A stretch of 32,379 nt of DNA. Source: Leptospiraceae bacterium (lineage in GTDB: Bacteria; Spirochaetota; Leptospiria; Leptospirales; Leptospiraceae). The DNA is taken from the NCBI GenBank assembly GCA_025360185.1, contig JANYCR010000606.1, forward strand, positions 1 to 32,379, given 5' to 3'. Shown here one piece after another: positions 13,462 to 19,523 of this stretch. Each line of letters starts with the position of its first letter. The first letter of the stretch is position 1. The notes beneath the pieces were generated by a model. That model had not been told where the DNA came from and made no database searches. It saw nothing but the letters and a program-made list of their open reading frames with translations. The position numbers and the translations under genes were made by a program.

Positions 13462-15837
13462 TTACTTAACCGCACCTTGAATACTATCAAAAATTCTATC
13501 TGACCAAGTGCCGCCTACTTTGACGTAAACCGCCGGCTCACCAATTGGGGCGGGAACTTTAAAACTGTGACCACCGATGATTACCTTTCCTGTGAAGGCG
13601 TGTTTCCATTTGCCTGCCGGAAAATACCCAGTAACCTCAGTATCACCCTTTGTGTATACGGGAATAACAAGTAAATCCTCTCCAACCATAAATTGATATT
13701 TCAAATTATAGGTATTTCGATCAGTTGGATAGTTGAGGTAAGGGTGACGAATGACTGGATAACCTTTTTCTTTTGCTTCGTTTACTAAGTGCGCAAAATA
13801 GTCCTTTAACGCATAATGAATTTTCCCGAATCGAGCAAATGCTTTTACACTGTTTATATCAGAATTATTTTCTGGATACAAAATGGGAGAACCGTCTTTT
13901 GTATTTTTCTTGTTATAGGTGCTTGAATAAACCTGGTTAAAACGCGCTGGAACATTTCCTTCGTGGGTGCGGTAAATCGGAGTAAACGCATTCATCTCAC
14001 TCCAACGTCTATTTAATTCTTCTGTTCTATCGTAAGAAGGAAAATACCAAGGAGGATTTTTAAGACCAGTGTAGCCGCCTATATCACTGTGGTTAATAGC
14101 GATTCCACTGATACCGCCGGAATTTAACCCGACGATAGTAGAGGCTAATCCATCGTTAACCCCAAAAGTTACCATTTGATCGCCTAACCAAAATGCAGTT
14201 GAATAACGATTAGACCCTGTGTAACCTGCGCGTGTAAAGAAAACGACTTCGCCTTCTTTGCCAGCTTCCTGGATTGCTTCTCTATTAATTCTTGCCCAAT
14301 CGACCGGATAGATATTGTGATAAATTTCCGCGGAAACTCCACTGTGAAGTTTCGCATCGAATGGAAGCCATTCACCAAAGTCAGCCATCCAACCAGAAAG
14401 ACCTTGCTCGATCATATTTTTCTTGATAATTTCTTTTGTCCACTTAACCGCTTCTGGATTTGTTAAATCAATTAGGTAAGCAGGAAAACCAATGGATTCA
14501 ATCATATAGTTTTCACCGGATTGATTTCTAACTAAGTAGCCTTTTGCTTTTGCTTCTTCGAGCATTGGGTTTGTAAATGAATCTGGAATTCGCTCAGGCT
14601 TACAGCCATTAAACGGAATGAATCTTATGTAGCCACAAGAGTTTGGTTCCTTAATTGGTTGCTTAGAACTTGTGGGTGCGTTAGTTTCTGCGAGGAAAGA
14701 ATTGATATAACCTAAAACTTTTACACCATCACGATTCATTTCAGCCGTAAAATTTTTAAAATCTGGGTACGAAGGTTCTGGATTTCCATCTGAGTCTGTT
14801 AACTCGGAGGTTTCCTGTGCATACCATCTCCATTTTAACTGGTCACCAAATCCTGTTACTCGTCGTCCAACCCAATCCTGAATCCAGAGCGCAGTAACGG
14901 GATTACCCGCTTGCTTAGCTTCTTTTACAATTTTTTTTACTTTATCGGTTCCGCCTTGCAATCCAAGCCAGGTTCCATAAGCCCAATCTGGAAGTCCTTG
15001 GTATCTTCCAGTTTTTGCGGTATACATTTCAATTAGATCAAGAGGTTTATCGGAGACCCAAATCGTTCCTTTTAAATTATTGTCCCAGAATAAAACTTTT
15101 ACGTATTCGTCTTGTTCGAAGTTAAATTTTGAGTATGCGCTATTTTCAAAATAGACTGAGCGGTTATTCGTTGTTATGTAATGCGGCATTGGAGCGTAGC
15201 TGGTGTATTCATTTCCACCGGCTCCCTGTGTAAGGTTCGCACCGAACGTAATTGGTTGGTCACCGCGCCCGATTCCTTGTTCTTCTGTAAATATAAAAGG
15301 TTTCTTTCCTTTCATATTAAAATGAGTATACTGTTCTCCGAAACCAAAAAACTGTTCTTCCTTGACTGAACGATAAACTAGGTTGATTCGATTAAAAGAT
15401 TTATCTGAGAGGCTAACAGCAAAGTTAAGGCTTTGTTTATTTTCAGCAATTAAATCTATTGTGTATTTCACATGGCAATCTTTACCATATAAGACACCAG
15501 AAATTTTAATTCCACTCTGGATTTTTTCGATTTTCTCAATAGATTGATTTGAGCATCGAGTGTTATACTTATCTTTAAATTTGAATGCTGCTAAATTATA
15601 ATCTACTTTCGGTGTTCCTGTTGCCACAGATAAAAAAGATCTATCTACTGGAAATTCTACGAATGAAAATTTATCATTGAATACATGCAATGTTTTTTCA
15701 TCAATTTTGTAATAGATTTCTGATCCGATTTCCCCTTTTGTTGATACTTTTTCCCAAACACGAACATGATTTTTTCCTGTCATGGAACATTGTAGGTAAA
15801 TGGATATGAGAATACCTAATATTATTTTTTTTATCAT
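13462..15837 (-). CDS. GH31 glycoside hydrolase lipoprotein, sulfoquinovosidase-like framework
   Basis: A 791-residue GH31 retaining alpha-glycosidase. The N-terminal signal ends in IYLQC (Cys17), so it is probably a lipoprotein. The nucleophile is Asp486 in GWMADFGEWLP and the acid/base is Asp553 in AFWLGDQ. Compared from memory with E. coli YihQ, catalytic and binding positions fall at identical spacings: Gln294 (YihQ Gln262), Gln320 (Gln288), Trp336 (Trp304) and Tyr589 (Tyr508). The sulfonate-binding Arg301 is Gln333 here (FGDQLKW). The enzyme therefore has the fold and subgroup of sulfoquinovosidases but probably a different alpha-glucoside as substrate. AGGAG lies 6 bases before the ATG. 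It is followed 9 bases later by the Septu-like genes and preceded by the rhodanese gene on the same strand. Confidence 0.9.
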   Translation of the reverse strand: MIKKIILGILISIYLQCSMTGKNHVRVWEKVSTKGEIGSEIYYKIDEKTLHVFNDKFSFVEFPVDRSFLSVATGTPKVDYNLAAFKFKDKYNTRCSNQSIEKIEKIQSGIKISGVLYGKDCHVKYTIDLIAENKQSLNFAVSLSDKSFNRINLVYRSVKEEQFFGFGEQYTHFNMKGKKPFIFTEEQGIGRGDQPITFGANLTQGAGGNEYTSYAPMPHYITTNNRSVYFENSAYSKFNFEQDEYVKVLFWDNNLKGTIWVSDKPLDLIEMYTAKTGRYQGLPDWAYGTWLGLQGGTDKVKKIVKEAKQAGNPVTALWIQDWVGRRVTGFGDQLKWRWYAQETSELTDSDGNPEPSYPDFKNFTAEMNRDGVKVLGYINSFLAETNAPTSSKQPIKEPNSCGYIRFIPFNGCKPERIPDSFTNPMLEEAKAKGYLVRNQSGENYMIESIGFPAYLIDLTNPEAVKWTKEIIKKNMIEQGLSGWMADFGEWLPFDAKLHSGVSAEIYHNIYPVDWARINREAIQEAGKEGEVVFFTRAGYTGSNRYSTAFWLGDQMVTFGVNDGLASTIVGLNSGGISGIAINHSDIGGYTGLKNPPWYFPSYDRTEELNRRWSEMNAFTPIYRTHEGNVPARFNQVYSSTYNKKNTKDGSPILYPENNSDINSVKAFARFGKIHYALKDYFAHLVNEAKEKGYPVIRHPYLNYPTDRNTYNLKYQFMVGEDLLVIPVYTKGDTEVTGYFPAGKWKHAFTGKVIIGGHSFKVPAPIGEPAVYVKVGGTWSDRIFDSIQGAVK

Positions 15838-15860: not shown

Positions 15861-16709
15861 TTATTTCTTTTTATCTATACCGCCGACTCTAGGTGCTGCA
15901 GATGCCACTGCATTTGCCCCGTAAAGAGAGACAGCTTGTTTTGGTAAGTTGGATTTTCTCCATTCAAACCAAGAGCCCTGGTAAGTGAGAACATCTTGGT
16001 ATCCTACTTCTTTGAGCATCAGAGCGCATAAGCAGGATCTTGCTCCGTTATAATCATACAATACGGTTGTTCTTTCTGGCATAAAAGGAAAACCCTGTAA
16101 TCGCTTTATAAAAATTTCGCGGGTAATGACAAATCCTTCTTGGTCATAAAATGTCTGCCAATCCCAAAGAAACGCACCGGGAAGTCTTCCCGACAAAGTG
16201 CCCGGCTCTGGACTTGTAAGTCGTGGAAGTTTTCCATCGTATTCTTCCTTTGTTCTTGTATCAAAGATTTGTAGGCGAGTTAAATTTTTTTCCATAAACG
16301 CTTTGTCTACTACGCCGGCTAACGGTTTAGGTTTTTCAGTTGGATCTACGTCTACTATATGTTTGCCCGGCTCGGTATCTCCGCTGATAGGCCATTTTAA
16401 AGATAGCATATAAGTCTCTTTAAATCCGATAGATCTGAGTAAATAGACCATTCTAGCGGAAAACATTCCCATTCCTTCGTCGTAAACGACAACTCTTGAT
16501 TTGCCGGAGTCATTGATTAAACCGAGAATTGCTTTTAACGGTGTATACATTTTTTTTTGAGATTCGTTGTCCGAACCAAATGCTTTTTTTATAAAAGGAA
16601 AATAATAGGCACCTTTGATCGTGCTTTCTTCATAAGCAGATTGATTTCTGCAATCGATGATAAAATCATCCTTCTCAATAGTCTGTTTTAAAAAATTCCA
16701 GTTTGACAA
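15861..16709 (-). CDS. Two-domain rhodanese-like protein without catalytic cysteine
   Basis: The 282-residue protein has the two rhodanese domains of thiosulfate/3-mercaptopyruvate sulfurtransferases: [20 protein letters not shown] (18-37) opens the first, and [13 protein letters not shown] (148-160) with [11 protein letters not shown] (174-184) opens the second. The second domain should carry the active-site loop Cys-x2-Gly-x-x-Ala after a TTVLY strand. Here that strand is followed by DYNGARSC, so Asp219 stands where the sulfur-carrying Cys is expected. GSWFEW (245-250), typical of SseA-type proteins, is present. It is therefore probably not a normal sulfurtransferase; nearby Cys225 or Cys227 could substitute, or the protein may bind an anion. 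The start is a TTG at 16709 supported by AAAGGA 7 bases upstream. It may be co-transcribed with the GH31 gene 23 bases downstream. Confidence 0.85.
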
Positions 16710-17729: not shown

Positions 17730-18359
17730 TTAAATTTCTCTAAATAAAAAAGAACCAAGGATAATTCCTAGTAAACTCAGCGCCAATATAGGAATTGCAT
17801 GAACAACAAACAAATGAGACGGCATTTCATTTGGACAAAGAAATGCCACGCTTATTACGCTTGCAGATGCACTAGCGGCTAATATCCAAAAACCAGTCCA
17901 TTTTTTTTGAAATGGCATTCTTCTATTTACAATATACATCAATACTGTACAGGATGGCAAACTCATTAAGATAATATCTTTATAACAATCATGATATTTA
18001 AAAATTTTATCATTTGAAGTTGTAATGCCAAATGAATAGCGCAAACCCAAAAGCAAAACCCATATCAATAAAAATAAAACAGTCAAATAATTAAGATTCC
18101 TTTTTACCCGATTGCCTGGTATGCTATAATAAATTGCCGCAAATGCCGATAAAAAAACACAAAGAATAATAGGTATTAGCTCATATAAATATTGGGGGAT
18201 ATAGATATTCTGAAAATTATCAGAACGATTCCAGATAAAAAATAGCAGGAAAGAAAAGGAAAAAAGAATCCATCCAATAAAAGTAATATATACCGGATAA
18301 ATTCGTTTTACCGGTGATAGGTTAGAACTCAATTCGTTTATTAAATTTTCAGTTTTCAT
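17730..18359 (-). CDS. nrsF: NrsF/DUF1109-type anti-sigma factor
   Basis: A 209-residue protein with six hydrophobic segments. It begins MKTENLINELSSNLSPVKRI, the typical cytoplasmic N-terminus of DUF1109 (NrsF) proteins, and ends with CPNEMPSHLFVVHAIPILAL (175-194), the conserved C-P-x-x-x-x-x-H-L-x-x-x-H family motif. Cys125 and Cys175 lie 50 residues apart; as I recall, Caulobacter NrsF uses two cysteines with the same 50-residue spacing (131 and 181) as redox sensors. NrsF holds its ECF sigma factor at the membrane and releases it under metal or oxidative stress. The start overlaps the sigma gene by 11 bases, so the pair is coupled. The gene converges on the small gene ending at 17633. 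Confidence 0.85.
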   Translation of the reverse strand: MKTENLINELSSNLSPVKRIYPVYITFIGWILFSFSFLLFFIWNRSDNFQNIYIPQYLYELIPIILCVFLSAFAAIYYSIPGNRVKRNLNYLTVLFLLIWVLLLGLRYSFGITTSNDKIFKYHDCYKDIILMSLPSCTVLMYIVNRRMPFQKKWTGFWILAASASASVISVAFLCPNEMPSHLFVVHAIPILALSLLGIILGSFLFREI

Positions 18360-18894
18360 TTTTTACTCGCTTTCGAAGAGTATGGTATCCTCTGTGGGCA
18401 ATTACTTTCACGTTGGCTTCCGACAAATTTAGCTTAGCCGCAACGCTACGAATGCTTAGACCTTGAATCTTTAACATTGAAATAATTTGTTTTTGTTTTC
18501 CTGGAAGTTCACTAATTAGATTTAGAATCTCTAGAGATTTGCTATTTTCAGTTGATTCAATTTTTTCCGGGCTGACGATATTATTGATTTCCGCTTCAAT
18601 GATATTCGCATTTTGCCTATGAATTTTTTTATAATATTTTACAAGGGTATTTTTTGCAATAGCATACATCCACGGATAAAATGGTTTAGACGGAAGATAG
18701 GTATGCCTTGAGTTGTGAATTGCGAGTAAAATTTCTTGTAAAACATCTTCTCTGTCATCGAGTGATCCAATGCGACGGGCAAGAAACTTTACGAGGGTAA
18801 TACTAATTTGACGCAAAAGTACTCGATACGAATTTGCGTTACCCGATTGAGCATCTGCCATTAAACGAGAAAGGAGATCTTTTTCCTGAGCCAT
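18349..18894 (-). CDS. ECF-family RNA polymerase sigma factor
   Basis: A 181-residue ECF sigma factor. Region 2 includes RRIGSLDDREDVLQEILLAI (40-59, the DxxD-E-x-L-Q-E core) and KPFYPWMYAIAKNTLVKYY (70-88). Region 4 includes ELPGKQKQIISML and the helix-turn-helix LSIRSVAAKLNLSEANVKVI (146-165). I start it at the ATG 18892-18894 because region 2 begins normally there. A longer reading up to 19008 adds 38 hydrophobic residues not seen in this family, and neither start has a strong ribosome-binding site. It is followed by its NrsF partner and preceded by four genes that fit a redox or metal stress regulon, which it probably controls together with itself. Confidence 0.9.
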   Translation of the reverse strand: MAQEKDLLSRLMADAQSGNANSYRVLLRQISITLVKFLARRIGSLDDREDVLQEILLAIHNSRHTYLPSKPFYPWMYAIAKNTLVKYYKKIHRQNANIIEAEINNIVSPEKIESTENSKSLEILNLISELPGKQKQIISMLKIQGLSIRSVAAKLNLSEANVKVIAHRGYHTLRKRVKNEN

Positions 18895-19004
18895 ACTATT
18901 TTTACTAGAAAACAATAAGTATGGTTTTGGATAAAGTAACAAAAATATTTTACTAAAAATTTCATTAGAGTAAATTTCCCGAAAGAAAAAGAAATCAATA
19001 CTAT

Positions 19005-19523
19005 TCATTGAATTATTTTTGATTTTTCTTTATAGACAATAGTTGAATAGGCAAATCCAAACGACCCATCAATTTCTATCTCAGGAAAGTGAAAGTTAAA
19101 TCCTAATCTTAATATTGCCATATGGTGAATAGTATGTTCGGTTATATAATGCAGCTCTCGTTTTAAATTTGTATTCATTCTTGAGAAGGTTTCGTCGTCT
19201 GCCCAAGTTTCCAGTAGCAGTGGTATATGCTCATAATGCTCTAAATTTAAAATATAATTAGCTTGCTCTAATAGAGAATCAACCGCATACTCTCTATTTA
19301 ACTCTAATTTTGTATTTCGTGTTCTTTTTTCATAATTCACAATGCCAGTTTGGATTCCTTTGAGAAGACATTCAGGAAAATTATAAATGTGACGAACATG
19401 CTCACCGATTGTTGTTCCAGCAAAGATAGGTAATTTTTCAGAATAGCCTGTCTCTGGAATTTGATTAATATGGTTTGTGAGTTGATTAATGAGTCCTGTA
19501 AAATTTTGAATCTCATTCTGCAT
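19005..19523 (-). CDS. DinB-like (four-helix, metal-binding) protein
   Basis: A 172-residue protein with the DinB/YfiT four-helix-bundle pattern: GEHVRHIYNF (40-49) gives the first His, and HYITEHTIHHMAIL (125-138) gives the second and third (His130, His133 or His134). These three histidines bind a divalent metal, usually Zn or Ni. Relatives act as thiol-dependent transferases (bacillithiol or mycothiol) or have unknown roles; the substrate here is unknown. It sits between the cupredoxin-like gene (11 bases upstream) and the sigma factor gene, which suggests a thiol or metal stress role. GGGG lies 6 bases before the ATG. Confidence 0.8.
   Translation of the reverse strand: MQNEIQNFTGLINQLTNHINQIPETGYSEKLPIFAGTTIGEHVRHIYNFPECLLKGIQTGIVNYEKRTRNTKLELNREYAVDSLLEQANYILNLEHYEHIPLLLETWADDETFSRMNTNLKRELHYITEHTIHHMAILRLGFNFHFPEIEIDGSFGFAYSTIVYKEKSKIIQ

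Follow-up and report, generated by a model that had tools for sequence, protein, structure and literature searches.

The window, a stretch of 32,379 nucleotides from a Leptospiraceae genome, encodes a GH31 enzyme that combines the framework of a sulfoquinovosidase (SQase) with a glutamine, Gln333, at the position of the sulfonate-binding Arg301 of the Escherichia coli enzyme YihQ. In other spirochaetes, enzymes with the same replacement are found in gene clusters for the use of sulfoquinovose (SQ), the sugar of the plant sulfolipid, and from this operon evidence we regard it as very probable that an enzyme in which Arg has changed to Gln at this site can still serve SQ use. For the window enzyme itself, we lean, to a modest degree, towards the view that it hydrolyses SQ glycosides at the cell surface or in the periplasm with an altered sulfonate pocket, regardless of whether the cell makes use of the sugar. 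We stop short of calling it a proven SQase since one defining feature of the family, the arginine, is missing.

Results

The window belongs to a Leptospiraceae-like assembly of 5.83 Mb in 623 contigs that is 94.3% complete, and the closest named relatives of this genome are Leptospiraceae genome bins, including the isolate Go_SlAct_bin_98. According to the original prediction, the gene studied here, which starts with an ATG codon (Table 1), should encode a GH31 enzyme with a sulfoquinovosidase framework, and profile and structure searches bear this out. Its translation matches the Pfam GH31 family (PF01055; 1.2e-39) and scores 837.6 bits with the NCBIfam YihQ/PRK10426 equivalog model, above its cut-off of 553; annotation by similarity would thus label it PRK10426/YihQ-like, as had been anticipated. 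The curated alpha-glucosidase and alpha-xylosidase models MalA and YicI are failed (116 versus 800 bits and 164 versus 606 bits, respectively). An AlphaFold model of the window enzyme, for which 27 sequences from the window and related loci served as input, reached a mean pLDDT of 88.5 and a pTM of 0.89. When Foldseek was used to compare it with the PDB, the first 23 matches were solved SQases (BmSQase and the enzymes from E. coli, E. rectale and A. tumefaciens), with target TM scores of 0.94-0.96 and E-values from 1e-83 to 1e-74; the first GH31 protein other than an SQase followed at an E-value of 1e-48. This ranking identifies the framework as that of an SQase and not of a generic alpha-glucosidase.

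Table 1. Features of the GH31 gene and its upstream neighbour, with their positions in the window.
Feature	Positions	Strand	Basis
Exported GH31 enzyme (791 aa) of the sulfoquinovosidase-like clade; active-site set QQQWY; probable lipoprotein signal	13462-15837	-	ORF, Pfam, NCBIfam, alignment, tree, model
N-terminal signal up to Cys17 (YLQC)	15787-15837	-	sequence inference
Gln333 codon CAG = YihQ Arg301 position (sulfonate-binding)	14839-14841	-	alignment
Trp336 codon TGG = YihQ Trp304	14830-14832	-	alignment
Gln294 codon CAA = YihQ Gln262	14956-14958	-	alignment
Gln320 codon CAG = YihQ Gln288	14878-14880	-	alignment
Asp486 codon GAC = nucleophile, YihQ Asp405	14380-14382	-	alignment
Asp553 codon GAT = acid/base, YihQ Asp472	14179-14181	-	alignment
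Tyr589 codon TAC = YihQ Tyr508	14071-14073	-	alignment
Tandem rhodanese-domain protein, 23 bases upstream of GH31, same direction	15861-16709	-	

YihQ (NP_418314; locus L082) was used as the alignment reference, and phmmer and MAFFT both returned the seven residue pairs that are listed in Table 1. Among these seven sites, only the position of Arg301 is changed, and the spacings of 26, 16, 67 and 36 residues are exact, in both respects as originally predicted. The two catalytic residues D486 and D553 are invariant in 27 sequences, and from the two options for the coevolving pair at YihQ positions 262 and 288, Gln-Gln or Lys-Glu, the window enzyme possesses the former (Q294 and Q320). Trp304 and Tyr508 of YihQ, which attend to the sulfonate there, have their counterparts in W336 and Y589, and their equivalents are retained in nearly all family members. 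Arg301, a contact of the sulfonate in YihQ, is the hallmark of a GH31 sulfoquinovosidase for which the window enzyme carries Gln333 instead. The N-terminus of the protein is hydrophobic, and relatives likewise have a cysteine where the signal ends (YLNC, YLHC, FLHC and LIDC); judged from these sequences, this is probably a spirochaetal lipoprotein signal.

With E. coli YihQ (PDB 5AED, 5AEG and 5OHT), the window enzyme consequently shares the fold (target TM 0.95), the Asp pair, the Gln-Gln pair and the equivalents of Trp304 and Tyr508; it differs not only in Gln333 versus Arg301, but is also apparently exported by its N-terminal signal, contains several insertions and lacks a surrounding yih-type cluster. 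YihQ and SftG cleave pNP-SQ with a kcat/KM of around 1e5 per M per s (PMC11968277). The KERWY-type SQase of A. tumefaciens (PDB 5OHS and 5OHY) is likewise similar in its fold, nucleophile, acid/base residue, Trp and Tyr. It is, however, cytosolic and combines a Lys-Glu pair with Arg, whereas the window enzyme combines Gln-Gln with Gln. Natural variation at one sulfonate-binding position is also found in the unrelated NAD+-dependent SQase family; there, in contrast, Leu is replaced by Tyr, the contacts are made by the backbone and the binding site stays intact.

Related loci (L numbers; genomes carry G numbers) were collected from a GTDB-wide scan, a scan of 393 genomes of the phylum and plasmid records. 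The glutamine in the column of Gln333 is kept in relatives that are 88, 82, 78, 63 and 62% identical to the window enzyme, and it can therefore be attributed neither to chance nor to a sequencing error. Among the 67 sequences of a tree that possess Trp at the YihQ-304 position, Gln occupies the Arg301 column in 45 and Arg in 22. This tree (IQ-TREE quick search with SH-aLRT; the trait column was left in as 1 of 735 columns) separates into two clades with 99% support. The YihQ clade is mostly cytosolic; nine of its members have Gln and 12 have Arg, the KERWY type being among the latter. The exported clade, to which the window enzyme belongs, comprises 36 Gln and 10 Arg members. Gln and Arg have interchanged at least seven times in the tree. 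This recurrence, together with the wide distribution, marks Gln as a recurrent natural state and not as a lesion of the window gene alone.

A nearby Arg or Lys that might fill the vacated site, the observation named in the original prediction as evidence against it, was not seen in the sequence alignment: at no column do all Gln enzymes share a newly gained basic residue, and K335 and R337, which flank Q333 closely, are both unconserved. Lacking such a compensating residue, the sulfonate site, if used, must function without an Arg at the 301 position. Within the YihQ clade, the Gln and Arg enzymes differ in a loop at about residues 446-452 of the window enzyme (YihQ 366-371), and all nine Gln members of this clade have Pro at YihQ position 371. 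In the exported clade, however, an Arg enzyme (L010) possesses a nearly identical loop, and the association of the loop with the Gln/Arg state may thus reflect phylogeny.

Two further observations among the related sequences deserve mention. In a large related group, mainly from Myxococcota and Deltaproteobacteria (L033-L081), the Arg-Trp positions are occupied by Gly/Asp-Tyr; the Gln-Gln pair and the two Asp residues are often retained, and a lipoprotein-like signal is often present. The relative encoded on plasmid p98 of Entomospira culicis (L155:8001-10004) reads RQPWDRS in the aligned set and apparently has no acid/base Asp.

Gln enzymes of other spirochaetes are embedded in SQ gene clusters. 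The operon of genome G343 (L127) consists of eight same-strand genes for SqvB (DUF4867), a TauE/SafE exporter, an iron alcohol dehydrogenase, an RpiB-like isomerase, a transketolase split into two genes, the Gln-type GH31 enzyme and an SqvD-like isomerase; the gene for the latter overlaps the start of the GH31 gene, and a ROK regulator is encoded upstream of the operon. The SqvD-like protein matches only the NCBI sulfoquinovose isomerase model, with 207 bits against a cut-off of 700, and is thus a divergent member. This gene content makes the operon complete and equals the published sulfo-transketolase (sulfo-TK) set (PMC9594981; Pfam list in PMC11968277). In G319 (L145), the Gln enzyme is accompanied by a transaldolase, DUF4867, a YihU-like reductase and a glycyl-radical enzyme with its activase, an arrangement whose predicted functions fit a sulfo-TAL pathway with a sulfonate lyase. 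Subsets of sulfo-TK/sulfo-TAL genes adjoin the Gln enzymes of G374, G377, G130 and G005. In none of these six genomes did the search of the phylum reveal another SQase-like GH31 enzyme at E<=1e-40. Arg enzymes occupy similar SQ clusters at about 16 other loci, and one sulfo-TK cluster (L196; G308:C5:131000-150500) contains both an Arg-type and a Gln-type GH31 gene. Across the 393 spirochaete genomes, a strong SqvD match (20 genomes) coincides with an SQase-like GH31 enzyme in 16 (Fisher p 1.6e-10, a value that ignores relatedness). The Gln enzymes of the sulfo-TK/sulfo-TAL operons (L127, L145, L146 and L115) have the QQQWY set in common with the window enzyme; however, they have no apparent signal peptide and belong to the YihQ clade, whereas the window enzyme belongs to its exported sister clade. 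This position outside the clade of the cluster-linked Gln enzymes is a counterweight to the SQ reading.

Not every Gln enzyme is found in such surroundings. In G239, G244 and G357, the SQ cluster contains an Arg enzyme, and a Gln paralogue is encoded at another locus with a GPH-type transporter as its neighbour; G386 shows the same arrangement, with its Arg enzyme in a weaker SQ-type neighbourhood. The loci of these Arg/Gln paralogues are L144/L204, L205/L212, L197/L209 and L150/L210. Of the genomes in the g34 genus, four combine an Arg enzyme with SqvD, and G122 encodes a Gln enzyme but shows no match to SqvD. Collectively, these patterns imply that some Gln enzymes may have another substrate.

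SqvD and DUF4867 (SqvB) are absent from all Leptospirae genomes searched, and a search without a positive control returned no match to YihS in 30 genomes, mostly Leptospirae. No homologues of SqvD, SqvB, YihS or SquD were found in the fragmented, 94% complete assembly of the window genome, nor SquD in its two closest relatives. With a query from a Novosphingobium SQase cluster, a SquD-like flavin monooxygenase was detected in seven of 48 Leptospirae genomes; the six proteins compared are 49-54% identical to the Novosphingobium protein and 31-35% identical to E. coli SsuD. A SquF-like aldo-keto reductase gene adjoins the SquD-like gene in all seven, and a sodium/solute-symporter-like gene is adjacent to the pair in five. 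Six of the seven, including G029 from the genus of the window genome, also encode the Gln lipoprotein, with a distance of about 10 kb between the two loci in G193. The Gln lipoprotein enzyme is present in 29 of the 48 genomes, however, and 23 of these 29 have no SquD. The overlap of SquD with the GH31 enzyme reaches significance when the whole phylum is considered (p 1e-4), but within Leptospirae it does not (p 0.22), and for these reasons the link is only suggestive. According to an independent published survey, in which clustered SmoB and SmoC suffice for a sulfo-SMO call, clusters of this type are frequent in Spirochaetota (PMC13372026). As an observation beyond this phylum scan, plasmid pEMTOL05 of Emticicia (L192:6489-12417) carries a SquD-like monooxygenase gene with a sodium/solute symporter gene and a GH95 gene as neighbours. 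A sulfo-ED route likewise found no support: matches to the sulfogluconate dehydratase query were mostly 34-38% identical, as is expected of IlvD/Edd-type enzymes, and a 49% match in G190 is not flanked by an SQ dehydrogenase or a lactonase.

Directly upstream of the window GH31 gene lies a gene for a tandem rhodanese-domain protein (Table 1). This pair is kept in four related genomes (the window genome, G179, G100 and G080), and as the surrounding genes are otherwise different in G080, a member of another genus, the pairing exceeds background synteny. The active-site loop of the second rhodanese domain reads YDYNGARS and apparently lacks the usual catalytic Cys, which makes a role as catalytic sulfurtransferase doubtful. 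Elsewhere in the window (17730-19008, minus strand), a gene for an ECF-type sigma factor adjoins an NrsF-type anti-sigma gene. The neighbourhoods of L012 and L032, read by eye, contain no recognisable sugar pathway.

Discussion

The data reported here lend themselves to a working model in which the window protein would be exported, probably anchored to lipid, and act as a retaining alpha-glycosidase from the sulfoquinovosidase branch of GH31. Its substrate would most likely be sulfoquinovosyl glycerol or sulfoquinovosyl diacylglycerol (SQDG), cleaved outside the cytoplasm with Asp486 as the predicted nucleophile and Asp553 as the predicted acid/base residue. The sulfonate would be held without an Arg salt bridge, by Trp336 and Tyr589 together with neutral hydrogen bonds that Gln333 and the loop around it contribute.

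The original prediction had taken the glutamine as a hint at a neutral-sugar or otherwise altered enzyme, and the loss of the sulfonate-binding Arg could indeed mean that the exported Leptospirae enzyme cuts a neutral alpha-glycoside, for instance an alpha-glucosyl glycerolipid or oligosaccharide. The arginine is replaced without a basic substitute, most of the Leptospirae that bear the enzyme have none of the known SQ pathways, and four genomes keep a Gln paralogue outside their SQ cluster, all of which would suit such a substrate. Yet QQQWY enzymes are the only SQase-like GH31 enzymes detected in at least six genomes with sulfoglycolysis clusters, and six Leptospirae with a Gln lipoprotein possess the SQ-monooxygenase/aldo-keto-reductase pair; as it stands, the neutral-sugar idea is not supported by these findings. 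The near-universal retention of the Trp304/Tyr508 equivalents, the low scores with the alpha-glucosidase and alpha-xylosidase models and a fold far from both likewise speak against a neutral substrate, which we consider unlikely. An altered anion site in an otherwise preserved SQase framework would also be in keeping with another acidic sugar, be it a different sulfosugar, a uronide or a phosphosugar glycoside. This is highly improbable, though, given that the neighbours of Q-type enzymes are SqvD/SqvB/SqwGHI or SftT genes, for which SQ is the known substrate, and that no uronide or phosphosugar genes were recognised beside the window enzyme.

A special case of the SQ reading, whose probability overlaps with that of the general one, concerns the fate of the products. 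Leptospires live mainly on long-chain fatty acids, and the enzyme might cut SQDG or SQ-glycerol mainly for the lipid or glycerol part and leave the sugar to other organisms, so that no genes for SQ catabolism would be needed. This would agree with the absence of known SQ pathway genes from the window genome and most of its relatives and with the predicted exported location of the enzyme. Two findings make us rate it as somewhat unlikely: no consistently linked lipase or lipid-uptake gene was found near the enzyme, and six relatives carry the SQ monooxygenase pair. The general SQ reading, with the sugar used by the cell or not, is the one that we prefer. Its extension to the family is tentative, and we place it short of an even chance: a large exported leptospiral SQase clade and the cytosolic sulfo-TK/sulfo-TAL set would both bind the sulfonate without the hallmark Arg, and some Leptospirae would feed an SQ monooxygenase pathway in this way.

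The Arg of the QQRWY/KERWY motif is used to recognise true SQases. With Gln relatives located inside gene clusters for SQ use, its absence alone does not imply a different substrate. Should the Gln enzymes not act on SQ, then sulfoglycolysis operons would hold a GH31 enzyme with another substrate; should they act on it, motif-based surveys would miss many SQases, above all in spirochaetes.
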